Shown: positions 262-41,744 of the stretch, piece after piece
Position numbering within the stretch: the stretch's first letter is position 1
Layout: the number at the start of each line of letters is the position of its first letter
Assembly: GCA_020348925.1 (NCBI GenBank)
Contig: CP070758.1
Location: forward strand, 1,387,157 to 1,429,954
From: Gemmatimonadota bacterium
GTDB taxonomy: Bacteria; JBHIER01; G020348925
DNA length: 42,798 nt
Direction of reading: 5' to 3'
Position numbers and translations under genes: made by a program
Notes under the pieces: generated by a model
The model's database searches: none
What the model was told of the DNA's origin: nothing
The model's input: only the letters and a program-made list of their open reading frames with translations

Positions 262-384
262 TGCATAGTTCGTGATGTGTGAAGCTTCGCAGACACATCC
301 TGGAATTGAATGGGAAATACAATGACTCGGTACGAGGTCGATGAATTGATAGGTATGCGGACCTGATTGGCGGGGAGGGACGTG

Positions 385-3300
385 GTGAAATTTGTAAAAC
401 ATATTTTTTTCCTTTCAGTGCTCTCTTCTTTTTCCCTGTATTGCAGCGGAGCGCTTTGTGACCAACTCCCGACGCCTGGACAATACGGGGGCACAACATC
501 GCAGGGCCACCCTGTTTCCTTCAGCGTGACACACAGTGGATTCGTGGAAAACTTCTGTATCATCCTGGACTACAGCTGCGATGATTGCTCGGGGAACAAA
601 GAGATGTGTTTTGTGACCGAACAGTTCCAGATAACACAGAACCGTTTCCAGTACGATGCTCAGACACCGAACAGATTTGAACTGGGTGGACGTTTTTTCA
701 CGGAGTCGAATGCCTCCGGATTTCTGTATTACGTGACCGATCAGATATGCGGGTCCTGCGACAATTACGTCACCTGGAACACAACCTGTCTTGAATGCAC
801 ACCATCGATCACGATCACATCACCCAACGGTGGTGAACGATGGATCGCCGGTGCGATTCATCCCATTGCATGGATATACACCGGTCAGTTGCCGTTTTTA
901 GAAATTTCTTATAGTGTCCAGAGCGGGCAGTCGTGGATCACCATCGTTGATACCACGGCGAATATGGGTTCTTACCTGTGGACCGTTCCGGGCACACCTT
1001 CCGATTCCTGTCTCGTTCGGATCCGGAGTGTGGGTGACACGACGGTGACCGATGAGAGCGATGAGCCCTTCTCAATATGCATGCAACCGTTCATTACCGT
1101 CCTTTCTCCCAACGGAGGTGAGAGATGGTTCCAGGGCGATGAGAACACGGTGCAGTGGACGTGGGAGGGGTGCCTCGATTCCGTGGCTCTCGACTATACC
1201 GTTGACGGCGGTCAGATATGGATGCGTCTTGCGGAGAGCGTGCCAAACACCGGAACCTTTGCCTGGAGTATTCCCCAGACCCCTTCCTCCGACTGCTTTG
1301 TCCGTGTTTCGGACGTGACCGATGATGCTGTTTTCGACTCCAGCGACGCTCCGTTTCGAATCTGCGCTGACCTCTCACTGACGGTTCTGTCACCGAACGG
1401 AGGCGAGGAATGGATCGTTGGGAGTTCCCAACCGATCATGTGGGCCTCGTCCGAATGTGTCGATGAGGTGACTCTTGCGTATTCGATCGACAGTGGGGGT
1501 GATTGGATCCCCATCGCTTCAGAGGTGCCTGACACCGGTTCCTATGTGTGGCTCGTTCCTGATACTCCGTCCGCCGCGTGTCTGGTCAAGGTGTGGGACG
1601 CAGGCGATGCAGCCGTCGTCGATTCGAGCGACGATGTTTTTTCCGTGTGTCAGGAGCCGTCCGTCCAGGTTCTGTGGCCGAACGGAGGGGAGAGGGTCAT
1701 TGTCGATAGCGATCATGATATCCAATGGCTTTCGACGGGATGCATCCATGATGTGACGGTTCTGTATAGCGTCGACGCCGGTCAGAACTGGATTTCCGTA
1801 TCAGGCGGGACGCCTGATGACGGGACCTTTGAATGGACCATTCCGAACACTCCCTCAGCCGCGTGTCTTGTGAAAATCCATGTCTTCGGCGATACGACCC
1901 ACTTTGATGTGAGTGACAGCCTGTTCGCAATCGAATTGACGCCTGCGTTGACGCTTCTTGCACCGAATGGAGGGGAGGAGTGGTGGGTCGGGAATACCTA
2001 CGACGTTCTCTGGCAGAGCTGGGGGCCTGTGGGGGATGTGACGCTCGAGTATTCGACCGATAGCGGAGCAGGCTGGCAAGCTATTGCCGAGACGACCCAG
2101 AACACAGGTGTGTTCGAATGGAGCGTACCCTCCACACCGTCCAGCCTGTGCCTGGTCCGCATTAGTGACCTGCTGACAGGTACGGTTGCCGACACGAGTG
2201 ACAGCCTGTTCTCGATCGCGCCGGCACCGGAGCTTTCGCTCATTGCACCAAGCGGAGGTGAGCGGTGGTATATCGGAGGCCAGTACGATATTCAATGGTC
2301 CTTTTCAGGCTCGATTGACCTTATTGGGATTGAATACTCTCTCACAGGTGGTGCTGCTTGGATTGCGGTTGCGGAAAGCACCTCAAATGATGGTCTGTAC
2401 CGGTGGGAGATTCCCGAGACACCGTCGGAGCAGTGCCTCGTCCGCATCTATGACGTGGCCCATCCCGGAGTGGGTGACACGAGCGGGACCTTCATTATGA
2501 CTGTTCTCTCCGACATCACGCTGCACACTCCGAACGGGGGGGAGATCTGGCTTGTGGGGAGCACGTACGATATTGTCTGGTCGTCCGAAGGGTTGATCGA
2601 TCAAGTTTCCATCGCTTACTCTCACACCGGTGGCCTCTCCTGGATAACGATCAGAGACACGACGCTCAACGACGGTCTCCACGAATGGACCGTTCCAGCG
2701 CCTCCCTCTCTTTTGTGTCTCGTGCGCGTTTTCGACGTGACCGATCACAGTGTGGCCGACACGAGTGACAGTATTTTTACCGTTCGGGAGGCGCCGACCC
2801 TGTCCCTCGTATCGCCCAATGGCGGCGAAGAGTGGCGGGTGGCAGATGTGCGGCAGATCCTATGGTCATCCACCGGCCTCGTGCCGACCGTGACCATTGA
2901 ATATCGTGTAACGGATGACTCCGAGTGGATACCGGTTGTTGGCAATACTCCCAATGATGGGAATTACGCCTGGACGATCCCGAACAACCCGTCGACAGAA
3001 TGCTGGGTCCGAATGTATGATTCGACCGATTCCGACGTAGCCGATACCAGCGATAGCTCCTTCACGATACTCCCCTTTGAGATGATCCTCAAAGTCTCCG
3101 ACGGGAGCGGGAATTCGGGCAGCTCGGATAACAGGGTCCATATTCAGGGGGACACGCGGGTGAGTTTAAGCTCTCTTTCCTTCTCCTTAGCATACGATCC
3201 GAGTGTTCTGACGGCGACGAGTATCGTTGGGACCGAGCGCGTGGCCGACATGTCCCGTTTTTGGTGGGATCATACGGCACCGGGAAGTTTGGGTGTGATC

Positions 3301-5949
3301 CTTGAAGATGGGATTCTTCCCGCAGGTGAGGGTGTGCTCGTGTCGGTGCTCTTCGATGTTTCAGGGACCGCCCTTCCCGGTGAATATGGGCTGGCCCTGT
3401 CCGCCTGTGCTCTCCGGGATACATTGGGGCGCGAATCTCTTCTGTGTGCCACTGAGGATGGGATCTTTACAGTCTATCCCAGGGAAACTTTTTCGATTGC
3501 AGGTGCTATCCGCGACAACAGCGGTCAGGGTGTGGAAGGTGTTACGGTCACCTTAATGGGCGACAGCTCAGAGGTCTTCACGACGTCGGCGAGCGGTTTG
3601 TACCAGTTTCACCAACTAGCGACCGGGGAGTACAGCGTGCTGCCTAGAAAAGGGTGCTGGACCTTTCAGCCACCCTGGCGTCACTACACCTCCCTCGATA
3701 CGAATTATGATCATGAAGATTTCAAGGGATTCACTCTGGGGCGCTCTTTCCTCGGTTGGACTGAGGGTGTGGGAGAGACAGAACTGAGGGACGGAGCGTT
3801 GGAGGATACATTTGCCGTCTGGTTTGATCCCGGTCTGCCCTGCTCGCTCTATGCTGTCGAAGCGGCCTTCAACACGCCGGGGACAATCATGATTTTTGTG
3901 TGGGATGCAGGACCCAATGCACCTCACCATGGCGTGGCTCCGGAGAGGGGTACGTTTCCCGGGTCACCTCTCGGTGATCCGATCGTTGGTCCTTTTCCCT
4001 TCACGGTTCAAGGCAGCGGTGACTGGGAGCGTCTCAACCTTGTTCAGACCGGTTCCGTTCCGGTGTTCGGAGGTCCGGATGAACCCGGGCGTTCCTTCTT
4101 CGTGGGATGGGTCAAGGTCGTTCCTGGTCCGTATCCTGACAACGTGCCCCATGTCTTGGGACAACAGGTCTTGTCAGATGCGACGCATTCCTGGTTCGGC
4201 GGACCGTGGATCGGACCCGGGGGACCGGATGAGAGAGAGCACCCTTGGGGGGGGTACGGAGGCAGTCTCAACGGATCCCCGCCTGTGGAGTATGCTGTCA
4301 GACTGGATGTCTCGTTTCCCTGGTGTCCCCTCGTTGTCTCCGCGGGTCTGCCAGATGTGGCCGGCGATGAGGGAGATACACTCTCTGTCCCGCTCTATGT
4401 CTATTCAAATGTTACGGGTTTGGACGTTCGCTCGTACGCCTGTGAAATCGGCTATGATGAAACCCTTTTGGAGGTACATGGGTGTGTCAGCCTGCCAGGT
4501 GATATGACGCGGGATTGGGGGGCGCCGACGTGCCAGGCGGATGTCCCTGGCAGACTGATGCTCAGCCAGGCAGGATCGTCGGCCCTGGTGGGAACGGGGA
4601 TGCTCATCCATCTGCAATTTCGGCTCTTGAGCGGTTGGAGAGAATGCAGCGATCTCACCTTTGTCGAATTTGTGTTCAATGATGGTACACCTCAGGTGAG
4701 CGCTGGGAACGGCCGCATCTGCGTGGAGGCGGGGAGTCAGCGGTGTCACATCTCCGGCCGCGTTCTCCATTATGCCACTCGCAATCCTGTTGCTGAAACC
4801 GACCTTGTGTTTTCCGCCGGCGATTCGGACACGATCCAGACGGACGGTGACGGGTTCTATATCTTCGAGCGGCGGTTGTGCTCCCTCGATGATACACTGT
4901 GTGCTTCCATGCGAGATTATCCGTCTCATGGTGTGACGGCCTATGATGCGGCCCTGGTCGCTCAGACGGCAGCCGGGATGATAACCCTCTCCCCGCTGCA
5001 GCACATTGCCGGTGATGTGAGTGCCAATTGTGCTGTCTCCACCTACGATGCTGCTCTCATTGCCCGGTATGCCGCCGAGCTCATCTCGTCCTTTCCCACA
5101 GGACCGTGGATGATGGTGCCTGAGAAGGAGACCGTCACCGAAGAAAACTGGTGTTCCGTGCCCTCCTGTTTGATGCATACGCCGCTGGCAATGAACAGAG
5201 ACGGACAGGACTTTCTGGCGGTTCCGGTGGGGGATGTGAGCGGCAACTGGAGCTCCGCCCGGCGCATGTTTCCGAAGTCCCCGCCGATACCGCTGTGGCA
5301 GGACATGATCCTCACCAGGGGGCAAGTCTGTACCCTTCCTCTCCTGCTGGCCCAGGAAGAGGAGATCGTGGCTCTTGATCTCGGATTGACGTACGATCCT
5401 TCCGTGCTCACTCTGGAGGCGGCTTCCCGGACGGCAGCCACAGAGGATTTCATGTTGGTTGTGAACCATCGAGCCGGAGGCGCTGCCCTTTCCCTGTACG
5501 GCCGTTCTCCTGTCAGAGGATCGGAGGCTGTGCTCGAACTCCGGTTTCTCGTCATCGGTGAAGAAGGTGCAAGAAGCCTGCTCAAGGTGAACAAGCTGCT
5601 CGTCAATGAAAGGTCCGTTGCCGTTGCCGAGACACGGCTGTCTGTGAGAGGGAACCTTCCCCACGAATATGGTCTGGAACAGAATGTGCCCAACCCCTTC
5701 AATCCTGTAACGACCATTCGATATCATATACCACGGACCGATGGACCGGTTCGCGCCACGCTCACCCTGTATAATGTCCTGGGACAGGAGATAAAGAGAT
5801 TGGTTGAGGACGATCACGCAGCGGGTACGTACGACGTCGTATGGGACGGAACGGACGACAAAGGATGTAAGGTCTCCAGCGGTATCTATTTCTACCGACT
5901 GGGAACGGACACGTTTGTGCAGACTCGAAAAATGGTCTACTTACGGTAA
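385..5949 (+). CDS. Giant exported multidomain surface protein with T9SS-type C-terminal domain
   Basis: About 1854 residues. I chose GTG 385 because GGGGAGGGA lies at 372-380; an in-frame TTG at 367 is the longer alternative. A hydrophobic signal peptide covers residues 1-25, followed by a Cys-rich N-terminal domain (about 26-140). Eight Ig-like repeats of about 95 residues follow (about 140-896), each opening with a PNGGE[RE]W-like motif and resembling the Kre9/KNH-like family. Then come a cohesin-like domain (about 900-1030), a carboxypeptidase-regulatory-like domain (about 1033-1116), an unrecognised beta-rich domain (about 1117-1312), a second cohesin-like domain (about 1314-1450), a dockerin-like pair with two xxYDAALxA helices (about 1500-1565), and a third cohesin-like domain. 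The C terminus (about 1761-1854) has NVPNPFNP and ends RKMVYLR, typical of FlgD-like / type IX sorting domains. The protein is likely anchored or released at the cell surface by a T9SS-like route. The next surface-protein gene follows after 40 nt, so the two are probably one operon. Confidence 0.9.
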   Translation: MKFVKHIFFLSVLSSFSLYCSGALCDQLPTPGQYGGTTSQGHPVSFSVTHSGFVENFCIILDYSCDDCSGNKEMCFVTEQFQITQNRFQYDAQTPNRFELGGRFFTESNASGFLYYVTDQICGSCDNYVTWNTTCLECTPSITITSPNGGERWIAGAIHPIAWIYTGQLPFLEISYSVQSGQSWITIVDTTANMGSYLWTVPGTPSDSCLVRIRSVGDTTVTDESDEPFSICMQPFITVLSPNGGERWFQGDENTVQWTWEGCLDSVALDYTVDGGQIWMRLAESVPNTGTFAWSIPQTPSSDCFVRVSDVTDDAVFDSSDAPFRICADLSLTVLSPNGGEEWIVGSSQPIMWASSECVDEVTLAYSIDSGGDWIPIASEVPDTGSYVWLVPDTPSAACLVKVWDAGDAAVVDSSDDVFSVCQEPSVQVLWPNGGERVIVDSDHDIQWLSTGCIHDVTVLYSVDAGQNWISVSGGTPDDGTFEWTIPNTPSAACLVKIHVFGDTTHFDVSDSLFAIELTPALTLLAPNGGEEWWVGNTYDVLWQSWGPVGDVTLEYSTDSGAGWQAIAETTQNTGVFEWSVPSTPSSLCLVRISDLLTGTVADTSDSLFSIAPAPELSLIAPSGGERWYIGGQYDIQWSFSGSIDLIGIEYSLTGGAAWIAVAESTSNDGLYRWEIPETPSEQCLVRIYDVAHPGVGDTSGTFIMTVLSDITLHTPNGGEIWLVGSTYDIVWSSEGLIDQVSIAYSHTGGLSWITIRDTTLNDGLHEWTVPAPPSLLCLVRVFDVTDHSVADTSDSIFTVREAPTLSLVSPNGGEEWRVADVRQILWSSTGLVPTVTIEYRVTDDSEWIPVVGNTPNDGNYAWTIPNNPSTECWVRMYDSTDSDVADTSDSSFTILPFEMILKVSDGSGNSGSSDNRVHIQGDTRVSLSSLSFSLAYDPSVLTATSIVGTERVADMSRFWWDHTAPGSLGVILEDGILPAGEGVLVSVLFDVSGTALPGEYGLALSACALRDTLGRESLLCATEDGIFTVYPRETFSIAGAIRDNSGQGVEGVTVTLMGDSSEVFTTSASGLYQFHQLATGEYSVLPRKGCWTFQPPWRHYTSLDTNYDHEDFKGFTLGRSFLGWTEGVGETELRDGALEDTFAVWFDPGLPCSLYAVEAAFNTPGTIMIFVWDAGPNAPHHGVAPERGTFPGSPLGDPIVGPFPFTVQGSGDWERLNLVQTGSVPVFGGPDEPGRSFFVGWVKVVPGPYPDNVPHVLGQQVLSDATHSWFGGPWIGPGGPDEREHPWGGYGGSLNGSPPVEYAVRLDVSFPWCPLVVSAGLPDVAGDEGDTLSVPLYVYSNVTGLDVRSYACEIGYDETLLEVHGCVSLPGDMTRDWGAPTCQADVPGRLMLSQAGSSALVGTGMLIHLQFRLLSGWRECSDLTFVEFVFNDGTPQVSAGNGRICVEAGSQRCHISGRVLHYATRNPVAETDLVFSAGDSDTIQTDGDGFYIFERRLCSLDDTLCASMRDYPSHGVTAYDAALVAQTAAGMITLSPLQHIAGDVSANCAVSTYDAALIARYAAELISSFPTGPWMMVPEKETVTEENWCSVPSCLMHTPLAMNRDGQDFLAVPVGDVSGNWSSARRMFPKSPPIPLWQDMILTRGQVCTLPLLLAQEEEIVALDLGLTYDPSVLTLEAASRTAATEDFMLVVNHRAGGAALSLYGRSPVRGSEAVLELRFLVIGEEGARSLLKVNKLLVNERSVAVAETRLSVRGNLPHEYGLEQNVPNPFNPVTTIRYHIPRTDGPVRATLTLYNVLGQEIKRLVEDDHAAGTYDVVWDGTDDKGCKVSSGIYFYRLGTDTFVQTRKMVYLR

Positions 5950-5989
5950 TGGATATGATGAGTGCGGTTGGTCTCTTGCGGGAATCAGA

Positions 5990-8900
5990 ATGAAGAAGAA
6001 TCGTCGCACAGTTCTCTTTGTTGCACTGACGTCCCTCGTTCTCCTTGCCGGATTGGATGCGACAGCCGTTGTTGTCACCGTTCCGGATACGACCCTGCGG
6101 ACAGGCACATCATTTTTGCTCCCCATTCGAGTGGATCAACTCTCGGACAGAGGTATCATCGCCTATCAGTTTCGGCTGGAGTTTGACGCCGACGTGCTCA
6201 GGATGGTGGGGGTGGAGAGGGAGGGGTGCTTGGGGAATCAGTGGGGTGAACCGACTGCGAATATGAGCATACCAGGGACCATTATCGTGGTTCAATACGG
6301 TATTGCTCCCCTTTCAGGAAGCGGCGATCTCATCAAACTGGAGTGTGACGTCATCGGGAATCCCCGCGATACGACGCAGCTGTCCTTCGATTCGTTCGTC
6401 TTCAATGACGGCGAGCCTCAGGCCGAGATGACAGATCCCGTGGCCATCTTCACCGTGACCTCCACGGGGGTACCCATTCTGGCTGTCTCTCCGGATACCA
6501 TTGACTTCGGCGCATTGGATACCTTGAGATCCTTCTCCGTTGCGAACGAAGGCGTCGGAGACTTGAACTGGAATGTTCTTGAGGATCCTGATATACCCTG
6601 GATTGTGACCGTTGACCCCTTGTCCGGAGCTTCTGACGATACGGTGACGGTGACTGTCTCCCGCGAGGGCATGAGTTTCGGATTTTATTCAGGGCTTCTG
6701 ACGGTTCAATCCGATGGTGGGCGAAGGGGGGTTGTTGTGAAAATGACCGTTCCTCAAGAATTTTTCATAGTGTCCGTCACCGTTCCCGATACGTCCCAGT
6801 ACACGAGCCGGTGGGTGGAGCTTCCTATCATGCTTGATGATGTCACGGACATGGAAATTATTGCCTATCAATTTGCCCTCCGCTATGATGCGGATGTGGT
6901 GAATATTGTCGGGGCCACGACGCACAATTCTTTAAGCGCAGGCTGGGGGGATGCGGAGGTGAATACCGATACCACCGGTCAAATCGGCGTGGCGCATTAT
7001 GGGGCGACACCTCTCTCCGGCGAAGGGACCCTCATCTCCCTTATCTGCTATGCCGTGGGCAATCCTGGTGATGCCACGGCTCTCAGTTTCGATCGATTTC
7101 TGTTCAACGACGGATACCCCCACGCGGAATGGACGACACCTGCGGCCACCTTTTCGGTCGACACGGCGGATGTGCCCCTCATTTTTCTATCGCCCTCAGT
7201 CCTCGACTTCGGGACGACGCAGACCGTGAACGCGTTCAACATCCGCAATGTCGGTACCGACACCCTGAAGTGGGCTGTTTCCGAGGATCCTGAGGTGGAG
7301 TGGATCACTTCCGTTTCGCCACGCTCCGGTGTGGGGGAAGGGACTGTTACTGTCGCGGTCAGCCGTATCGGCCTGGCGCCGGGTCTGTACTCGGGGAAGG
7401 TCTCGGTCACATCGAACGGCGGCGACGGAAGCATCACCGTGGCCCTGTCAGCGCCTGATGGGGGTCGACGCGTCCGTCTGTCGTTGCCGGACACCAGCGG
7501 AGCGGTCGCCAGTGAGCTCATAATTCCTGTCAGGGTCAATGATGTGTCCACTTTCGGCATTGTCGAATTTGAGTTAACACTCCTCTATGATGACGGCGTC
7601 TTGGAGGTTCTCGAGGCCCTCTCGGGGATGACGCTGAGTGCTGTCTGGGGACCACCCACATGGGACAGTCCCGCACCCGGTCACGTTCGCGTTGTCCATC
7701 AAGGACAACCGCCCTTGACCGGGAGCGGAACAATCGTTGGTTTCAGAATACGGGCCATTGGAGATCCTGAGAATACCAGTGAGTTGCGTTTTTCGAACGT
7801 GCTCATGAACGGGGACGCCGGTGTTTCCCAGTACAATACGCCGGCCGGCCTGTTCACGGTAGAACGTCCCGATTACCCTGTCCTTTCCGCAACACCGCTT
7901 TCCCTCGATTTTGGATCCGAGGCCACGACGAGGAATTTTTCCATTCGGAATGTCGGATCAGGCACACTTCGCTGGTCCATCTTCGAAAGCCCGGAAAAGA
8001 ATTGGATCGTTTCAATATTTCCCACGGACGGCCAGAATCAAAGAACTGTGACGGTCATTATCGATCGAGCATATCTCTACCCTGACGTCTATACCGGGAC
8101 ATTGCACATCGCATCGAACGGGGGGAATCAGAACATCAGCGTGCGGATGGAGGTTGTGGCGAGCGATACACTTCCACCCTATTTGGCCTTCAGCAGTCCG
8201 CAACATCATGCCGTCGGTATGGCCCGAAACATGCCCGTCTTCGTCATCATTGACGATGAGGACTCCAGCGTGCTTCCGAGCAGTGTGGGCGTTACGGTGG
8301 ATTCGGATACCATTGTGTCAGAGGGTGAGGATCGTACGGCCGGGGCTGTTCGATTCGTACCAAGGAACCGGGGAATAAGTCTTGTGTATACTCCCCTGAC
8401 GCTGTTTGACGAGAACTCTGAGGTGGTGATCTCTCTGACTGCCGAGGACACAGCGCTTCCTTCTCGTGTGTATGAGGGATCCTTTTCCTTTACAACCGGC
8501 TCCGCGACGGTGGAAGTTATTGCGGAGGCACTGTTGGCGTCCGAGGGTGGGACCGTGGATGATCCGGACGGTGTGTTCGTCACTTTACCCCCGGGTGTTC
8601 TCGCGGATAGTCTGACGGTTCTCGTAGGCACGGTGACGGCCCCACCGCAGCTCCCGGACTCACTGCTCTCCGTCGGCAGGACCTCTTTCTTCGGACCCGA
8701 GGGTCTGACCTTTTGCCCCTTACCCGGAGTAGGGCGGCTTGTTTACACTGACGAGGATCTCGCAGAAGCCGGAATTGTTGATGCCTTGGGCCTGATGGTT
8801 TTTTCTTTCAACTCTGAAAGCGGAGGGTGGGAAGAACGGCAGATTTTAAGCAATGATACCAACAGCGGGACCATCCTCTTTCAGATCTGTCGACTCGGGT

Positions 8901-9271
8901 ATGTCACCCTGGCCATCGCCCAGACGACCTCGGTTCAGGACGAGCGGAGGGATGAACGGATTCCCCTCACGTACCGTTTCATGTCCTGCCAACCCAACCC
9001 TTTCAACCCAACAACGTCCCTTCCTTTCCATATTCCTGACGTCCGTTTCCCTGTGGAGGTCACCCTTCGCATCTACAATGTACTCGGTGAGGAGATCCGT
9101 ACTCTTATTCGGCAGCGACTTCCCGGAGGCCGGTACACAGCGATCTGGGATGGATGCGACGGGAAGGGTAGGGATGTGCCCAGCGGAGTCTATTTTTGCA
9201 GGATGTCGGTGCAAGATGAACAGGGTTTCGAGGTCTTCGTCCAGACACAGAAAATGCTCTTCTTGAAATAA
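5990..9271 (+). CDS. Exported cohesin/BACON-repeat surface protein with T9SS-type C-terminal domain
   Basis: 1093 residues from ATG 5990 (MKKNRRTVLF...). The open frame extends upstream into the preceding gene, but this ATG begins a clear signal peptide (residues 1-27). The body is three units of a cohesin-like domain (about 28-160, 263-394, 493-626) followed by a BACON-type domain (about 161-252, 396-486, 628-722); each BACON unit has the 'LDFG ... NVG...LxW ... SxGG' pattern. An Ig-like domain starting at DTLPPYLAFSSP covers about 722-839. A ZU5-like domain (about 841-980) is recognised by GGTVDDPDG, LPPGVL and FGPEGLTF. The C-terminal FlgD-like sorting domain (about 988-1093) has CQPNPFNP and ends QTQKMLFLK. 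It shares module types with the gene upstream and is probably exported to the surface by the same machinery. The ligand is unknown; cohesin and BACON modules suggest protein-protein or glycan contacts. Confidence 0.88.
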   Translation: MKKNRRTVLFVALTSLVLLAGLDATAVVVTVPDTTLRTGTSFLLPIRVDQLSDRGIIAYQFRLEFDADVLRMVGVEREGCLGNQWGEPTANMSIPGTIIVVQYGIAPLSGSGDLIKLECDVIGNPRDTTQLSFDSFVFNDGEPQAEMTDPVAIFTVTSTGVPILAVSPDTIDFGALDTLRSFSVANEGVGDLNWNVLEDPDIPWIVTVDPLSGASDDTVTVTVSREGMSFGFYSGLLTVQSDGGRRGVVVKMTVPQEFFIVSVTVPDTSQYTSRWVELPIMLDDVTDMEIIAYQFALRYDADVVNIVGATTHNSLSAGWGDAEVNTDTTGQIGVAHYGATPLSGEGTLISLICYAVGNPGDATALSFDRFLFNDGYPHAEWTTPAATFSVDTADVPLIFLSPSVLDFGTTQTVNAFNIRNVGTDTLKWAVSEDPEVEWITSVSPRSGVGEGTVTVAVSRIGLAPGLYSGKVSVTSNGGDGSITVALSAPDGGRRVRLSLPDTSGAVASELIIPVRVNDVSTFGIVEFELTLLYDDGVLEVLEALSGMTLSAVWGPPTWDSPAPGHVRVVHQGQPPLTGSGTIVGFRIRAIGDPENTSELRFSNVLMNGDAGVSQYNTPAGLFTVERPDYPVLSATPLSLDFGSEATTRNFSIRNVGSGTLRWSIFESPEKNWIVSIFPTDGQNQRTVTVIIDRAYLYPDVYTGTLHIASNGGNQNISVRMEVVASDTLPPYLAFSSPQHHAVGMARNMPVFVIIDDEDSSVLPSSVGVTVDSDTIVSEGEDRTAGAVRFVPRNRGISLVYTPLTLFDENSEVVISLTAEDTALPSRVYEGSFSFTTGSATVEVIAEALLASEGGTVDDPDGVFVTLPPGVLADSLTVLVGTVTAPPQLPDSLLSVGRTSFFGPEGLTFCPLPGVGRLVYTDEDLAEAGIVDALGLMVFSFNSESGGWEERQILSNDTNSGTILFQICRLGYVTLAIAQTTSVQDERRDERIPLTYRFMSCQPNPFNPTTSLPFHIPDVRFPVEVTLRIYNVLGEEIRTLIRQRLPGGRYTAIWDGCDGKGRDVPSGVYFCRMSVQDEQGFEVFVQTQKMLFLK

Positions 9272-28121: not shown

Positions 28122-29423
28122 CTATCGTTTTAAGAATGTCCTGGCCCAGGTGAGCGCTGCGGATACGGTCATCGTTTCTCCTTGAATATCCGGGTGGCTC
28201 ACCTTCCATTGGTGGAGGTTTTGCTCGGAGCGGAAGAAGTGGATGTTGCCGTGCTGACCCTCGCTGAAAACTATGAGTCCCTGGGGTTGAGAGGAGATGA
28301 GCTGTCCGTTTTTGACCAGAATGCGAACCTCAGAACCGGTGTCTGTTGTCGCGGTCAAAATTTCGACGTCGTTCTGTCCATAGAGATACGGCCACCCCCA
28401 GAAATCCGGGGCACAGGGGAGCAACGATTTTCCCCTCTGCTCCATAATTTTCCGGGAAAAGCCGGAATATTCCGGTTCCTCCTGTTCGGTTTTTATGAGA
28501 GAGAAGGGGGGGCCTAAGGGTTCGTTCGACATGACAGCGGCCACAGGCTCTGGGACATGAAAGGGGTCTCTTTTCGGTACGAACATATTTTCCGACGTGT
28601 CGGACGCGGTTCTCTCAGACCGCATCTTCTCCTGTGCTTCAGGCGGGGCCTCTTCGGGTACTGGGAAGGTCTCAACCGTATTGACGGTGACGGATTCCGC
28701 AGCGGGAGTCGGCAAAACTCTTGAAGGTTCGTGAAGATCGAAGCCTTCATCGGGTGTGGGCTTTTCGTCTTCGGGAGCAGGGGAGATGGGTCTCTCTGCC
28801 TGATCAACTGGAATCGGTTCTTCTTGAAAATAGGAGTACGAGACATCACTTCTTTTCTGTCCCAGAATTTCATGCGTTGTGCTGCGGTCTTTCAGAGATG
28901 AGGCCATATACAGAGTATCCAATCCCTGGGGCAAGATGAAATAGACGCGCTCACCGTCGTTTCGAACATCGATAAATCCAGCCGCGTACAGGAACTCAAG
29001 GCCGCGAACGATGCGGGCTTTTGGGATGGGCGCCAGTGCATATTCCTGTATGTGGCGAATGAGATCTCTGATGCTTCCCAAATTGCCTCTGTGTTGTAAC
29101 AGGTAGGCCATGATGTGAGATTCATCATCTGAGAAGAAAACTCCTATGACGCCGTTCTCGTAATACATTTTTGCTGAGAGTTTGGCCCGCCTCTCATTCG
29201 TGATCGTTGAGGCGAGGGCCTGCTCGATGGTCTCCAGTGTCGGGATATCTCCTTCCTGGTCGATGTGTTCTAAAACAGACGCATATATTACTTTTTCGTC
29301 GAGTGTGAGTCGGACCCGTTCCATGGACGTTTGAAGACGGTTCTCTTCTGCATAGACACAGGGGGACACGGAAGATACGATGACGACCACAGCCAGAGAG
29401 AGCATTGGGGTTTTCAAATTCAT
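28122..29423 (-). CDS. Secreted MerB-like (alkylmercury lyase-fold) protein
   Basis: 433 residues from ATG 29423 (MNLKTPMLSL...), with GGAATGC upstream; the longer frame to 29540 has no SD. Signal peptide residues 1-24 with cleavage about VYA-EEN. The middle (about 40-200) is predicted helical and winged-helix-like (HRGNLGSIRDLIRHIQ, KARIVRGLEFLYAAGFIDV), followed by a Pro/Glu-rich linker (about 215-310). The last 97 residues resemble the catalytic domain of organomercurial lyase MerB: CAPD at 337-340 matches C96-x-x-D99 of MerB, and HFF at 394-396 with W401 matches the region after C159. The position of C159 is His391 here. So two of the three MerB catalytic residues are kept and one Cys is lost. 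It is likely periplasmic and not a classical lyase. It has its own promoter and lies next to the sigma/anti-sigma operon. Confidence 0.75.
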   Translation of the reverse strand: MNLKTPMLSLAVVVIVSSVSPCVYAEENRLQTSMERVRLTLDEKVIYASVLEHIDQEGDIPTLETIEQALASTITNERRAKLSAKMYYENGVIGVFFSDDESHIMAYLLQHRGNLGSIRDLIRHIQEYALAPIPKARIVRGLEFLYAAGFIDVRNDGERVYFILPQGLDTLYMASSLKDRSTTHEILGQKRSDVSYSYFQEEPIPVDQAERPISPAPEDEKPTPDEGFDLHEPSRVLPTPAAESVTVNTVETFPVPEEAPPEAQEKMRSERTASDTSENMFVPKRDPFHVPEPVAAVMSNEPLGPPFSLIKTEQEEPEYSGFSRKIMEQRGKSLLPCAPDFWGWPYLYGQNDVEILTATTDTGSEVRILVKNGQLISSQPQGLIVFSEGQHGNIHFFRSEQNLHQWKVSHPDIQGETMTVSAALTWARTFLKR

Positions 29424-29467
29424 GCATTCCTTTCTTTCGGGTTCTGGAATGTCGATTGTGTGTTGTA

Positions 29468-29496
29468 AAAATAGTATGTGTGGCTGAAAGAGGCAA
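29468..29496 (-). promoter_or_regulatory. Sigma70-type promoter of the MerB-like gene
   Basis: On the - strand TTGCCT (29496-29491), 17 nt, TATTTT (29473-29468); the start would be near 29461. The -35 lies just past the T-run of the preceding terminator. Confidence 0.45.
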
Positions 29497-29498
29497 CA

Positions 29499-29534
29499 GA
29501 AAAAACCCCTTTCCAAGACGGTTTTGAAAAGGGG
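29499..29534 (-). terminator. Rho-independent terminator after the HtrA-like gene
   Basis: CCCCTTT (29534-29528) pairs with AAAGGGG (29512-29506) and is followed on the - strand by TTTTTT (29505-29500). It separates the sigma/anti-sigma/HtrA-like operon from the MerB-like gene. Confidence 0.85.
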
Positions 29535-29571
29535 CAACATCTATATTGGGCACATCAAGAACGTCGGACCT

Positions 29572-30852
29572 CTATTCTTCTTTGTTGAAAAGTTTCTCCA
29601 ATCTCCGAATTTCTTCCTCCAGTTGTTCGATCCGTTTTTCCAGGGTTTCACGAGAGGTGACCGGCTGAACCATTGCTGCTGTTTCAGGGGTCACATTATA
29701 TTCCTGAAAATTCATGTTCTGTCCGTCGGTTTGTTCTGCCACCTGACTTGGCCTGTCACCGATTTTCGTGACCAGGGTATGTTGATGACCGTTGCGCGAG
29801 ATGGTGATGGGGATCGCTTCTCCAATGTGTGTCGATGTCACCCATTCGACGAGTTTCTTCCCATCAATCACTTTCTTCCCGTTATATTCAACGATGACAT
29901 CGCCTTGTTGGATACCCGCTTCCGAAGCGGGACTTGGTTCCGAAACAAATGTCACAAACACACCAGAGGCAACATTGAGTTTCATGGCTTGTTCGTTCGT
30001 CATATTCTGAATGGTGACCCCAAGCCAGCTGCGTTCGTATTTTCCATGCTCAATCAGTTCCCTGGCAATGGCCGTGGCCCTATGGGCAGGAATGGCTAAG
30101 CTTGCGCCGTGAGAGCGAAAATCGAACCGTTGTTGAGGCTGTCGCTGATCGCCCGGCGCACCGATCGTAACGGTTACGGGTTCGGTCACTGCGGCTGTGA
30201 CAAGTCCTATCACTTCGCCTTTGGTATTGAGGGCTGCGGCCCCGCTGTTGCCGGGATTCACATAGGCGCTCATCTGAATGAGATCGTCTTCCTGTCTGAT
30301 TCCGTTTACCAAGCCGAAGGATACGGCGGACGAGAGTCCGAACGAGTTGCCCAGAATCGTAATCCACGAACCAACCTTTAACCGATTGGGATCACCGACC
30401 TTCGCAGGAGTAAAATGATCACCTTCGATTTTCAATACGGCGATATTGCTTTCGGAATCAGTGCCAATAAGTTGGGCGATATATTGTTCCCCATTCGAGA
30501 GGGTGACCTCAAATTTTTCGGCACTCCGAATCACGTTTTCCGTGGTCAAAATGTGACCCCTGGAGTCCAGGATGAAGCCTGAACCCACGTTTGTCTGCCA
30601 TGAAAATTCCTCTTCTTGTGGTGCCTTCGGCGTATGCACAGTGCTCGATGAGAGCATTTGACCACAGTGACGCGTCTTGCACTTGGCTGAGACGCTCACC
30701 ACCGAAGGTTGTACTCTTTCCACCAGTTTTGTCATTTCTTTTTCAAGAGTATCCAGCAGTTGATTTTCCGCTCGTATTGCATCACATGGAGATAAAAGAA
30801 GTGTAAAAGATACGGAGAGAATCAGATGTATCACTGTCCCGCTTTTTCTCAT
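29572..30852 (-). CDS. HtrA/DegP-like pseudoprotease with PDZ domain and coiled coil
   Basis: 426 residues from ATG 30852, with CAGGAG 9 nt upstream; ATG 30858 is an alternative. A signal peptide (about 1-28) precedes a trypsin-like domain (about 40-265), a PDZ domain (about 276-363: GVFVTFVSEPSPASEAGIQQGDVIVEYNGK) and a C-terminal coiled coil (about 400-422). Aligned to DegP, the catalytic His (NNHV) is TTENV, giving N106; the catalytic Asp (SDIA) is SNIA, giving N136; Ser203 in NPGNSGAAAL is kept. Two of the three catalytic residues are replaced, so it is probably not a protease. A CKTRHC pair (58-63) lies near the mature N-terminus and could form a disulphide. It is in an operon with an ECF sigma factor and anti-sigma factor, where HtrA proteins usually act as stress sensors; a sensor or chaperone role is inferred. 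Confidence 0.85.
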   Translation of the reverse strand: MRKSGTVIHLILSVSFTLLLSPCDAIRAENQLLDTLEKEMTKLVERVQPSVVSVSAKCKTRHCGQMLSSSTVHTPKAPQEEEFSWQTNVGSGFILDSRGHILTTENVIRSAEKFEVTLSNGEQYIAQLIGTDSESNIAVLKIEGDHFTPAKVGDPNRLKVGSWITILGNSFGLSSAVSFGLVNGIRQEDDLIQMSAYVNPGNSGAAALNTKGEVIGLVTAAVTEPVTVTIGAPGDQRQPQQRFDFRSHGASLAIPAHRATAIARELIEHGKYERSWLGVTIQNMTNEQAMKLNVASGVFVTFVSEPSPASEAGIQQGDVIVEYNGKKVIDGKKLVEWVTSTHIGEAIPITISRNGHQHTLVTKIGDRPSQVAEQTDGQNMNFQEYNVTPETAAMVQPVTSRETLEKRIEQLEEEIRRLEKLFNKEE

Positions 30853-30915
30853 TGTCATATTCTCCTGAGCTACACGTATGCTTTTGAAACCCAATACTCG
30901 GACGTCGTCCCTGAA

Positions 30916-31608
30916 TTATGGGCTGAATGTAACCGTTTGAAGTCTCCGGGGCGGAGTGGCAGAGGGCAGGACGTACTTAACGGCTTGCAACCCTTCGGAT
31001 GTCCACTGGAGCCGGGTCTGGCCCAGGATATACTCTCGATTGAATTGGGATTGCCATGTCGATGAAAGATAGCCTCTCTGTAACTCAAGGTGTTGCGGCG
31101 AGATTTTTCTGAGCACATAATTGGGAGCTTCGTTCCGGTCACTCACGAGACGAGCCGGAGATCCGAGAGACACGGTGTCTTCTGAGGGACTGATCCGCTC
31201 CACTTTCGTTGAGTGTTCGCTTTCGGCAATAAAAAGGGGCTGTCTCTTTTGCAGGAGCGTGCTCTTAACAAGGAACAGTCCGATAACGACGGCGAGACAG
31301 GCCATAGAGAAGGCGAACGCTGGCCTGGGACGGATGGGCAGGTATGAAGGGAGACGACGCCACAATGTCCCTTCGGACCGCTCTCTCTCCAGGCGCAATT
31401 TGTCCTTTAAAATATGCTCAAAAGTGGGTGAGGATGCTACTTGAGGTAAACCGTTTAGGAGATCCCTCACGCGGCGCATTCTCTCGCAAACGGAGGCGCA
31501 GAGTGAACACCCGTCGACGTGCGTCTGAACGATATTGTGTTTTTCTGTTTCAAGCAACCCTTCGATAAAATCGGACATGGAGTCCTGAGCCCGTTTGCAA
31601 TCGATCAT
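30916..31608 (-). CDS. Zinc-binding anti-sigma factor, membrane-anchored
   Basis: 230 residues from ATG 31608 (AAGGAG 7 nt upstream). The cytoplasmic N-terminus has the ZAS motif H30-x3-C34-x2-C37 (HVDGCSLC). A single membrane helix (about 97-114, FAFSMACLAVVIGLFLV) leads to a periplasmic domain of about 115 residues. It holds its cognate sigma factor at the membrane until signal-induced release or proteolysis. It overlaps none of its neighbours but is only 29 nt after the sigma gene, with the HtrA-like gene next, so it is one operon. Confidence 0.9.
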   Translation of the reverse strand: MIDCKRAQDSMSDFIEGLLETEKHNIVQTHVDGCSLCASVCERMRRVRDLLNGLPQVASSPTFEHILKDKLRLERERSEGTLWRRLPSYLPIRPRPAFAFSMACLAVVIGLFLVKSTLLQKRQPLFIAESEHSTKVERISPSEDTVSLGSPARLVSDRNEAPNYVLRKISPQHLELQRGYLSSTWQSQFNREYILGQTRLQWTSEGLQAVKYVLPSATPPRRLQTVTFSP

Positions 31609-31637
31609 AGGCAACTCCTTCATTTTTAACTAAAACG

Positions 31638-32300
31638 TCATTGAATCCCTTCCATCCATTCTTTCAGCTCTTCTTGCAGTCGTAACCGAGCTCTGTTTAC
31701 CCTCGATTTCACTGTGCCGACCGGGCAGCCAATAATTTCTGCGATTTCTTCGTATGCAAACCCTTGAATATCTCTGAGGATAACGGCCTCCCGATATTTT
31801 GGAGATAGGGTCTCCATGGCTTCTTCGACGGCCCTTTCAATCATACGATCATGGGTTAAATCATCCGGTCGTTGGCTTTCATCGGGGATTTCAAACTCTG
31901 TTCCCTCCTCAGATTCTGGTTGATCCAAGGAAAAGAAGCGCCATCGTTTTCTTCTTCGGAGTTCACTCTTGGCCAGATTTCCGGCTATTGTGAAGATCCA
32001 TGTTGAAAAATTTGAGATTCGTTCGTGATTCTTGCGCTCCCTAAAAACCCTCAGAAATGTTTCCTGAACGAGTTCTTCGGCCTGATCTCGATCACCCACG
32101 AACCTGAAGACAAAATTGAGAAGCCGCATCTTATACCTCTTGACGATCATGTCAAAAGCCCCGGGGTCACCTTCGTGAACCTTCTTGAGGAGTTCCTCGT
32201 CTGCAGGGGTGCGCTGTTTCCGTTGGACCCTGACACCTGCGGCGCTTTCTCTCATTCGTCGCTCATTTTCGCTACTGGTCTTTAAACTTCGGTTCGTCAA
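31638..32300 (-). CDS. ECF RNA polymerase sigma factor (RpoE-like)
   Basis: 220 residues from TTG 32300, supported by GGAGGAAC 6 nt upstream; ATG 32255 would give a 205-residue form. Region 2 (about 35-110) has the -10 helices (FDMIVKRYKMRLLNFVFRFVGD, AEELVQETFLRVFRE) and WIFTIAGNLAKSELRRRKR; region 4 (about 160-215) has LSPKYREAVILRD and the helix-turn-helix YEEIAEIIGCPVGTVKSRVNRAR. It directs transcription of envelope-stress genes on release by the anti-sigma factor that follows it. A sigma70-type promoter lies at 32415-32443. Confidence 0.95.
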   Translation of the reverse strand: MTNRSLKTSSENERRMRESAAGVRVQRKQRTPADEELLKKVHEGDPGAFDMIVKRYKMRLLNFVFRFVGDRDQAEELVQETFLRVFRERKNHERISNFSTWIFTIAGNLAKSELRRRKRWRFFSLDQPESEEGTEFEIPDESQRPDDLTHDRMIERAVEEAMETLSPKYREAVILRDIQGFAYEEIAEIIGCPVGTVKSRVNRARLRLQEELKEWMEGIQ

Positions 32301-32414
32301 AAAAGTTCCTCCGTCTTTCGCAGAAGAGTGAAGCCTTTTGCGGTAGTCAATCAGGCTTTGTGAGACGCTTGAAATTCCAATTGCCGAGGGAAGATCGAAG
32401 GATCTTACAGTTCA

Positions 32415-32443
32415 ATTTTAACGTTTTCCTATCGAGAAGTCAA
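32415..32443 (-). promoter_or_regulatory. Promoter of the ECF sigma operon
   Basis: On the - strand TTGACT (32443-32438), 17 nt, TAAAAT (32420-32415), with a start near 32408 and a leader of about 108 nt before TTG 32300. It looks like a housekeeping promoter, so any ECF autoregulation would need a second site; I did not see one. Confidence 0.65.
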
Positions 32444-39725: not shown

Positions 39726-40667
39726 AACTTAGCGAGGTGCACCCATTGAACAGCCACAGTCCGATTCATCCCAGAGATGTGCCGACTCCGTTCTTTGTGC
39801 TATTGGAGACGATCTGAAGCATTTCTTCATTCCGATGGTCGGTCTCCAAGTAACAGTATCTCCACCCACGGCGAACGTGCTCGGATCGGGCACGCTGGTC
39901 AAGGTTGCGCGCGAGTCCTTCATTCTGACCGCAGCCCACGTTTGGGAGTTTGCTCAGGCATACCCGTCCATTGGACTGGTCCGGGTTGGCTCACCCTCCA
40001 TCGTTACCGTGAGACGCGATTTCATTGTCCCGCAAACCCTGGGCCGGGCGCCATTCGGCGAATGGGGGCCCGACTTGGCACTCCTCAAGATTCCTTATCC
40101 CGACTCCGGCACTTTGCTAGCGAGACAGTCCGCTCTAGATCTCGTCGCGGAACGTGGAAGTACACCAGCTCATCCACCCAGCAGCGATGCAGGCTTCTGG
40201 GTCACGCTCGGTGTGGTCGCTGAGCGCAGTGACATCGCGTTTGACCTTACTGAGCGTGAGATGTCCATAACAATTGACGGTCCACCGAGTTTCTCTCCTC
40301 GGGCGGTGCTACGGCAGAACGGTGCATTTGACTATCGTGACGTATCATTCGATCCAGGGATCTCATTCAACCCACAAAGTCATGGGGGAACAAGCGGTGC
40401 AGGCCTCTGGTTGGTCCCTTTGTCCCGCGACGCGAATGGCACCGTGGTCTGGCGAGGTGCGAGGATCTTCCAGGGAGTAGCATTCTGGGAGCAACGAGAG
40501 TCCCCTGAAGATGGGTTCATTCGATGCCATGGAGCGGACAGCCTCTTCAAGGTCGCGTGGGAAACATGGGGGTTGCCCAACAAGTAAATGCACCCGACAG
40601 CCGCTGCCTCGCCAGAAGATCAAGACGTTTGATTGCTAGGTGGTTGCTGCTGCGGGTGATTTGCAGG
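39720..40667 (+). mobile_element. Integron gene cassette 1 (trypsin-like protease)
   Basis: The cassette begins with TTGGGC and ends at the G of the attC core at 40667, 948 bp. G plus its first six bases (GTTGGGC) is the exact reverse complement of the R'' box GCCCAAC (40575-40581) of attC1, which proves that the two ends belong to the same circularised unit. It holds one gene, starting about 25 nt after the boundary. Confidence 0.85.
39745..40587 (+). CDS. Trypsin-like (S1-fold) serine protease, cassette 1
   Basis: 250 residues if started at ATG 39835, 280 if started at ATT 39745. I favour ATT 39745: the in-frame stop TAG is at 39730, GAGGTG lies 5 nt before the ATT, and the extra 30 residues (EQPQSDSSQRCADSV...DDLKHFF) lead directly into the domain. 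No ATG, GTG or TTG occurs in frame between the stop and 39835; CTG 39814 is another option. The catalytic triad is visible (ATG-based numbering): His in LTAAHVW (about residue 35), Asp in GPDLALLKI (about 79), Ser in GGTSGAGLW (about 190). There is no signal peptide, so it would be cytoplasmic, a feature of some defence or housekeeping trypsin-like proteases. The stop lies inside attC1. Confidence 0.7.
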   Translation: MEQPQSDSSQRCADSVLCAIGDDLKHFFIPMVGLQVTVSPPTANVLGSGTLVKVARESFILTAAHVWEFAQAYPSIGLVRVGSPSIVTVRRDFIVPQTLGRAPFGEWGPDLALLKIPYPDSGTLLARQSALDLVAERGSTPAHPPSSDAGFWVTLGVVAERSDIAFDLTEREMSITIDGPPSFSPRAVLRQNGAFDYRDVSFDPGISFNPQSHGGTSGAGLWLVPLSRDANGTVVWRGARIFQGVAFWEQRESPEDGFIRCHGADSLFKVAWETWGLPNK

Positions 40668-40673
40668 TTAGCT
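40575..40673 (+). repeat. attC1 recombination site
   Basis: R'' GCCCAAC (40575-40581) and R' GTTAGCT (40667-40673) enclose an imperfect palindrome of 99 bp: AAATGCACCCG on the left pairs with CGGGTGATTTGCA on the right with bulges. The G at 40667 is the cut base. The TTAGCT of R' belongs to the next cassette. Confidence 0.75.
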
Positions 40674-41744
40674 ACACGGCAATAGGATAAAGAGATGAAA
40701 TTCACCGAAATTCAAGATGCACTTAGAGACATTGGATGGCGTGAGTTTGAGAGTTTCGTAGTTGATGCTCTTTGTGCAATGGATCGATTTTCGGATATTC
40801 GGCATAACAGCGTCATGGGGGGGCATCAGATCGATGTAGTCGCAGAGGAAAAGGACCCTCTGTCGAGCACACCAGTTCGGTGGTTATTCGAGATTAAGGC
40901 GTGGAAGAGGAGAATAGGACGAGAGGTAATAGAACGTCTACACTTCTTGAGTCAGTCACTTGGTGGATCACCACACGGACAACGCGTCGTACTGGTATGC
41001 AACATCCCGCCGACTAAAAGCGCAGCAATGATGGCACGACAGTTCGGGATTGAAATCTGGGACCCTCTGAAATTAATTGAGCTAGTCCCCTCACAAGTGT
41101 TACAGAAGTACTTTGGAAGTGACGCCTCCAGTGCCTTGCCGGATAGAGAGAGTGAGACTAAGACGCGAGCGTTTCATGAGTCTCTTAGTAAGCTGCGTCC
41201 AGGCCGGAATGATTGGTTTTCTTACCAACGACTCGTTTCCGAGATGTTCGAATATCTGTTTTGCCCACCACTTGAGTCTCCACGTGACGAAGTACCAGAT
41301 GCTGATGCTCGAAATAGACGAGATATTATTCTTGAAAACGGGGCACCAGATGGATTCTGGAGTCGCTTGAGAACCACTTACGCTGCTGATTTCGTTGTTG
41401 TATATGCGAAGAACTACGTTGCACCGCTCAAAAAAACGCCAATACTTGACGTTGCGCATTACCTTAAGCCGCACGGTTGCGGGATGTTCGCGATAATTGC
41501 TTCTCGTTCTGGCGCTGGTCCCTCTGCGATCCATGCTGTAAGAGAACAGTGGATAGCATCACGTAAAATGATACTTGTACTTGATGATCAAAATCTGAAG
41601 GACATGATTGATCTGAAGCAAGAAGCTGGTGATCCGGAAGATTTACTTAGACGTCATATAGCTGAATTTCGTATGTCGTTGTGACTCGGTAGCTAACAAG
41701 GCAAATTCAGCCGACGCAAAAAGCCGCGCGGCTGATTAGCACCG
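40668..41744 (+). mobile_element. Integron gene cassette 2 (two REase-like domains)
   Basis: 1077 bp, from TTAGCT (40668) to the G at 41744. G plus TTAGCT = GTTAGCT is the exact reverse complement of R'' AGCTAAC (41691-41697), so the ends match. The single gene begins 27 nt after the boundary. Confidence 0.88.
40695..41684 (+). CDS. Protein with two restriction endonuclease-like domains, cassette 2
   Basis: 329 residues; AGGATAAAGAG lies just before ATG 40695. The N-terminal half (about 10-120) has an Mrr/REase-like nuclease core: GGHQIDVVAEE (Asp) then RWLFEIKAWK (E-x-K), and VVLVCNIPPT as the next strand. The C-terminal half (about 165-320) repeats the pattern: RRDIILENG, then ADFVVVYAKNY, then CGMFAIIASRSG. 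In the second domain E-x-K reads Y-A-K, so Glu is lost while Lys stays. The first domain can be catalytic, the second probably not and may bind DNA. Such proteins in integron cassettes are candidates for antiphage defence; this is inference. Confidence 0.7.
   Translation: MKFTEIQDALRDIGWREFESFVVDALCAMDRFSDIRHNSVMGGHQIDVVAEEKDPLSSTPVRWLFEIKAWKRRIGREVIERLHFLSQSLGGSPHGQRVVLVCNIPPTKSAAMMARQFGIEIWDPLKLIELVPSQVLQKYFGSDASSALPDRESETKTRAFHESLSKLRPGRNDWFSYQRLVSEMFEYLFCPPLESPRDEVPDADARNRRDIILENGAPDGFWSRLRTTYAADFVVVYAKNYVAPLKKTPILDVAHYLKPHGCGMFAIIASRSGAGPSAIHAVREQWIASRKMILVLDDQNLKDMIDLKQEAGDPEDLLRRHIAEFRMSL

Follow-up and report, generated by a model that had tools for sequence, protein, structure and literature searches.

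The stretch of DNA analysed here (the window, 42,798 nucleotides of contig CP070758.1 from a Gemmatimonadota bacterium) contains three genes in a row on the minus strand, which encode an ECF sigma factor, an anti-sigma factor and an HtrA-like protein (Table 1). The gaps between them measure 14 bases (sigma to anti-sigma) and 57 bases (anti-sigma to HtrA-like). The sigma factor matches the Pfam models Sigma70_r2 (4.5e-17) and Sigma70_r4_2 (2.7e-19), and scores below the equivalog cut-offs of the RpoE- and SigW-like NCBIfam models. The anti-sigma factor is composed of a cytoplasmic zf-HC2 domain, a single hydrophobic segment (residues 101-119) and a periplasmic tail of about 116 residues. Sigma regions 2 and 4 on the one hand, and an H-x3-C-x2-C anti-sigma with a hydrophobic segment on the other hand, identify the first two genes as an ECF sigma/zinc anti-sigma pair. 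The preliminary description of the locus had taken the genes for a single unit, on account of their order and of a strong terminator at 29499-29534. The genes lie on one strand, and a terminator-like hairpin closes the unit. Terminator-like sites in the region overall are not in excess (4, against a mean of 4.3 after shuffling).

Table 1. Features of the operon in the window, in the direction of transcription
Feature	Coordinates	Strand	Remarks
Sigma-70 promoter-like sequence TTGACT-17-TAAAAT, upstream of sigma gene	32415-32443	minus	consensus match only
First gene: ECF sigma factor (regions 2 and 4)	31638-32300	minus	Pfam
zf-HC2 anti-sigma factor	30916-31623	minus	Pfam, 22.5 bits (cut-off 22.2)
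Anti-sigma zinc motif H35-x3-C39-x2-C42	31498-31521	minus	
Anti-sigma periplasmic Y-V-L-P motif	30964-30975	minus	Y217 and P220 invariant in 6/6 aligned
Anti-sigma C-terminal VTFSP	30919-30933	minus	relatives stop at F/Y (or GGL)
Pseudo-HtrA with an apparent signal peptide, a trypsin fold, a single PDZ and a C-terminal helix	29572-30858	minus	
N108 codon (catalytic His position)	30535-30537	minus	
N138 codon (catalytic Asp position)	30445-30447	minus	
S205 codon (catalytic Ser position)	30244-30246	minus	Ser kept
PDZ domain, carboxylate-binding loop RSWLGV	29764-30042	minus	Pfam PDZ_2, 1.2e-12
C-terminal helix/coiled coil	29581-29652	minus	AlphaFold2 helix 403-426
Intrinsic-terminator-like hairpin, 12 pairs, end of operon	29505-29535	minus	

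An RpoE-like promoter (GAACT-14/16-TCT at 32392-32413, upstream of the sigma gene) was also considered. The match does not count as evidence, because the pattern occurs five times in the window, where 4.66 occurrences are expected. Elsewhere in the window, just past the terminator, a secreted-looking protein of 472 residues has a C-terminal MerB-like domain (28122-29540, minus strand; PF03243, 2.2e-9). Cohesin-like and BACON-like domains, together with FlgD Ig-like domains at the C-terminus, occur in two very large proteins encoded at 367-9271 (plus strand). At 39835-41684 (plus strand), a trypsin-like protein of 250 residues (PF13365, 23 bits, below the cut-off) is directly followed by an Mrr_cat restriction-endonuclease-like protein, and the two are perhaps a defence-type pair.

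In the textbook view, anti-sigma factors are cut by HtrA proteases. The HtrA-like protein of the window, read from the ATG at 30858, has N108 and N138 in place of the catalytic His and Asp, and S205 at the position of the catalytic Ser, in a GNSGAA motif that replaces GNSGG. With the next ATG as the start, these residues become N106, N136 and S203, the numbering of the preliminary description, which had noted the retained Ser and had placed the two substitutions in ranges (30530-30540 and 30440-30450) that contain the codons located here. Neither the window protein nor its family thus has the full triad of active HtrA/Do serine proteases. A signal peptide is apparent by eye. The AlphaFold2 model, computed from the window and named-locus sequences (mean pLDDT 83.8), has the HtrA fold, and its best solved structural neighbours are DegQ, DegP, AlgW, MucD and DegS. 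DegS with YQF and AlgW with a decapeptide are among the closest folds; TM-scores against DegS and AlgW structures reach about 0.85 when normalised by the solved chains. Assignment to DegS fails on the score (159 bits, cut-off 423) and on the lost triad, and assignment to MamO on the score (30.7 bits, equivalog cut-off 800).

Relatives of this protein were sought in 386 genomes with the window protein, and larger stretches around the matches were then read. The window genome is the sole member of its phylum in this set. Ten loci have the same gene order and none retains the catalytic His; one of them (L070), at a contig end, is without a sigma gene. A scan of named genomes with the single protein gave no relatives. 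A profile of 13 pseudo-HtrA proteins (A5), all 13 of which match Trypsin_2 and PDZ, scores 408-524 bits in 13 of the 386 genomes and at most 301 bits in the next ones, which are ordinary HtrAs. This gap is partly one of construction: rows of the profile come from 11 of the 13 genomes, and the remaining two have a genus code in common with one of these 11. When the phyla to which four such genomes belong were scanned, 2/4, 13/16, 12/82 and 39/84 genomes came out above threshold; in the last phylum, 30 of the 40 matches were read.

Altogether, 63 related loci were collected, the window included (L177-L189 and L206-L253, which make 61, with L090 and L116). The catalytic His is kept in none of the 63; the residue found instead is N, D, G, S, T, A or F. 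In 59 of them, an ECF sigma gene is found within about 1 kb upstream in the same orientation, and the four loci without a visible sigma gene (L179, L220, L223 and L253) begin at the edge of a contig. Members from named genomes are two Zixibacteria (L090 and L116), together with L087 (Zixibacteria), L088 (bacterium GMC4) and L089 (candidate division TA06), the last three reading identical to L070-L072. The Asn at the Asp position recurs in L070 and L071. The 16 ordinary HtrAs read alongside retain the His, and the upstream DNA read for them contains no sigma gene. More widely, unlinked HtrAs of the comparison sets nearly all keep His-Asp-Ser, with the exception of a tandem copy in L139, and have no sigma gene upstream, except for weak sigma-like matches in L015 and L026 and for the RseB-bearing operons L081, L140 and L163.

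The observation is thus confirmed, and the window protein belongs to a family. The preliminary description had left room for relatives with His and Asp restored, of which there is none among the 63 linked loci, and for a sequencing error, which is excluded by the Asn of L070 and L071 and by the absence of the His from all linked relatives. Strain-specific decay is likewise ruled out by the shared loss and by purifying selection (see below). The L139 protein represents another type of dead HtrA, distinct from the pseudo-HtrAs: it lacks the His (LSNAFLVD, DLSNTGG) and lies in tandem with an intact HtrA (3840-5339 and 5872-7305), with no sigma gene. In one genome (G495), two pseudo-HtrA copies are above threshold (L230 and G495:C52:61682-62800). 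In L071, L075 and L076, which have different family codes, the pseudo-HtrA is followed by genes of about 330-345 residues that are related to each other.

A tree was built from 28 dead and 41 live HtrAs without the three catalytic columns. A single branch separates the two sets (SH-aLRT 100, a value to be trusted less because of the quick method and the long branches of L075, L076 and L221). In the dead rows of this set, His is present in 0/28, Asp in 13/28 and Ser in 15/28; in the live rows, each is present in 41/41. The Ser loop (conservation 0.66 in dead versus 0.96 in live rows) and the His loop (0.54 versus 0.77) are relaxed in the dead rows. The carboxylate-binding loop of the PDZ domain, the domain that the preliminary description saw as retained, is not relaxed (0.67 versus 0.69). 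The coiled coil that it regarded as new fares less uniformly: the helix is modelled in the window protein and the coiled coil is present in 11 of the 13 rows of A5, but it is absent in the phylum of G317.

The variety of residues in place of His, Asp and Ser could be taken as a mark of a decaying protease or pseudogene without a regulatory role. This is barely credible, as dN/dS lies between 0.125 and 0.314 in all 55 pairs among the pseudo-HtrAs of 11 related species. Moreover, the open frames in the loci read extend over 350 to 504 residues, the PDZ loop is kept, and the linkage is stable over many family codes. It is also very unlikely that the proteins still cut, by way of a relocated catalytic base or of the retained Ser alone. 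S205 of the window and the Ser in 15 of the 28 dead rows leave scope for some residual chemistry, but Ser is lost in the other 13 rows, and Asp and the oxyanion-loop residues vary as well.

The anti-sigma factors next to the pseudo-HtrAs share a characteristic C-terminus. Nearly all of the 28 linked anti-sigmas read first, the one of the window included, end in F, Y, W or GGL. Three of the 63 loci (L222, L223 and L253) gave no anti-sigma frame, and the resulting 60 tails end in F (28), Y (2), W (1), L (28, all GGL) or P (1, the window). A PDZ-ligand-like end is thus found on 59 of the 60, the sole exception being the window, where the tail reads -VTFSP and the Phe stands two residues before the end. 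All 28 GGL tails belong to the phylum of G317. The H-x3-C-x2-C motif is present in 58 of the 60; L182 is without it, and L220 is cut by a contig end. Further upstream in the tail, a Y-[VIL]-x-P motif aligns in six of six anti-sigmas, including that of the window. In one group of 11 species, 67% of the last 9 residues are invariant, compared to 10% of the preceding 51.

As a control, zf-HC2 matches from 14 of the same genomes were used. Of 96 matches, six were set aside (four linked ones covered elsewhere, a further match in a frame already matched, and one frame of 1,200 residues). The remaining 90 were fetched and, as two ran off their contigs, 88 were readable to the end. Eight of these are linked anti-sigmas (F 6, Y 1, L 1). 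The 80 unlinked proteins end in F (4), Y (1), W (1) or L (5) and never in GGL, the other residues making up the rest. Aromatic ends on 31/60 linked versus 6/80 unlinked proteins give a Fisher's test value of 4e-9, which is only nominal because the rows are related to each other: 11 of the 60 tails are from species of one genus code, and 28 (the GGL rows) from one phylum. When the GGL rows are dropped, 32 distinct tails are left, and 31 of these have F, Y or W as the last residue. The PDZ domains of DegS and AlgW respond to peptides ending in YYF and WVF, which leads to protease activation (excerpts of PMC8545111), so that Phe-ended tails are a known type of ligand for such domains. The GGL tail of the one phylum is unlike the end of an outer-membrane protein.

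The position of the pseudo-HtrA is informative as well. It directly follows the anti-sigma gene in its loci and is the third gene in 59 of the 63; the comparison of further neighbours covered 11 pseudo-HtrA loci. An active HtrA is part of such an operon in three loci (L081, L140 and L163), always as the fourth or a later gene, after MucB/RseB. In all three, MucB/RseB is third, the position that the pseudo-HtrA occupies elsewhere. The MucB_RseB fold (PF03888, PF17188), present in these three loci, has no Pfam match in the window pseudo-HtrA, and RseB-like matches in the window's own genome are weak and without a sigma gene nearby. The preliminary description had pointed to a separate site-1 protease as something to look for in the genome, and a DegS-like HtrA candidate is indeed present (G000:C1:4086227-4087261). 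The separate active HtrA of the genome (L002) combines a hydrophobic segment at the N-terminus with a single PDZ domain, and an RseP-type M50 homologue (234 bits, G000:C1:2340393-2341637) is encoded as well.

With moderate confidence, we favour a role of the pseudo-HtrA as a non-cutting, tail-binding partner that would shield the anti-sigma factor, in the place of RseB/MucB. RseB and MucB bind the anti-sigma and hold back site-1 cleavage (PMC8545111, in part). Together with the RseB/MucB-like position and the presence of a separate HtrA and an RseP homologue, this makes a co-anti-sigma the simplest mechanism. The PDZ domain of the secreted dead HtrA would bind the anti-sigma tail in the periplasm, the tail mimicking the C-terminus of an unfolded outer-membrane protein, and the anti-sigma would thereby be shielded from the separate site-1 protease. 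Misfolded outer-membrane proteins, exposing Phe-ended C-termini, would compete for the PDZ domain, and the anti-sigma would be let go. It could then be cut first by the site-1 protease, for which the DegS-like HtrA mentioned above is the candidate, and next by the site-2 protease, the RseP homologue, and the sigma factor would be freed. From the binding onward, these are steps that we infer.

Shielding as opposed to recruiting is the least sure step of this explanation. The pseudo-HtrA might instead be a positive adaptor, which holds the tail and, upon taking up misfolded protein, hands the anti-sigma over to an active HtrA, in a mixed trimer or by docking. This is not very likely, although the linkage and the tails fit it equally, the HtrA fold predicted for the pseudo-HtrA is compatible with it, and active HtrAs are encoded in the same genome. 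Against it stands the place in the operon, which is that of RseB/MucB, proteins that shield (PMC8545111, as far as excerpted).

Alternatively, the tail could serve the PDZ domain of another HtrA. If it were the ligand of a separate DegS-like site-1 protease, the pseudo-HtrA may be a general periplasmic chaperone that happens to be encoded in the operon. DegS-type PDZ domains do respond to Phe-ended tails (PMC8545111, in part), and HtrAs are capable of chaperone action (parts of PMC12826053). We regard this as unlikely, because the tail tracks the pseudo-HtrA neighbour in genomes with the same site-1 proteases (59/60 linked, as opposed to 6 aromatic ends among 80 unlinked). In addition, none of the three anti-sigmas of the RseB-bearing loci has the tail; they have other end residues.

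The preliminary description had seen in the protein a dead PDZ partner of the anti-sigma rather than its site-1 protease. The loss of the His, the purifying selection, the PDZ loop and the tails, all seen by comparison, speak strongly for this part. As a whole, the reading is only partly supported, since binding, sensing and regulation are what we infer from sequence, the tail of the window runs two residues past the Phe, and the coiled coil is missing in one phylum.

In its general layout, with an ECF sigma factor, a membrane anti-sigma and a periplasmic third protein, the operon resembles RpoE-RseA-RseB with DegS/RseP of Escherichia coli and AlgU-MucA-MucB with AlgW/MucP of Pseudomonas. PDZ domains and Phe-ended C-termini are part of the signal path in those systems too (PMC8103513 and PMC8545111, both in excerpts). 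In contrast to them, the third gene here encodes a dead HtrA instead of RseB/MucB, and the anti-sigma, of the zf-HC2 kind, itself ends in a PDZ-ligand-like tail. The pseudo-HtrA shares the trypsin fold and the single PDZ domain with DegS and AlgW, but has an apparent signal peptide in place of a membrane anchor, has lost the His, and in most members carries a C-terminal helix. MucD/DegP, fourth in algU-type operons, has the same fold and occurs in the same kind of operon, but its triad is active and RseB/MucB is third. The mycobacterial SigE-RseA-HtrA genes have the order of the window, with sigma factor, anti-sigma and HtrA in succession. The mycobacterial HtrA, Rv1223, differs from the pseudo-HtrA by a large cytoplasmic domain (PMC3062566, in part). 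MamO, the magnetosome HtrA pseudoprotease, is a precedent for a dead HtrA in non-proteolytic use (excerpts of PMC4794232). It has another neighbourhood and another role, and the window protein matches the MamO model at 1e-7, whereas its match to the DegP family model is at 8.9e-71.

The open-access literature searched yielded no mention of an HtrA pseudoprotease linked to a sigma factor, and none of the loss of catalysis or of the anti-sigma tail; the linkage as such may stand tabulated in the ECF classification. Judged by its sequences, the system appears to be a variant of the RpoE-RseA-RseB kind, in which the PDZ-ligand-like anti-sigma tail is new. A wider proposal, tentative and a little short of probable, is that of a closed sensing module, in which the anti-sigma's built-in mimic of an unfolded outer-membrane protein tail would be caught by the PDZ domain of a dedicated dead HtrA. 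Stress would then register as a competition of real tails with mimic ones, with the cutting left to separate proteases. The module would have a single origin, as a distinct HtrA lineage, and would occur in several deep-branching phyla, one of which uses -GGL as a second tail code.

The data suggest that the operon senses envelope stress through binding rather than through cutting. If this is true, the PDZ sensing step is separable from proteolysis, over several phyla, and the operon suggests how envelope stress may be read where RseB is absent from it. The anti-sigma tail provides a sequence signature for finding such systems, and the pseudo-HtrA would add a use of HtrA pseudoproteases besides that of MamO.
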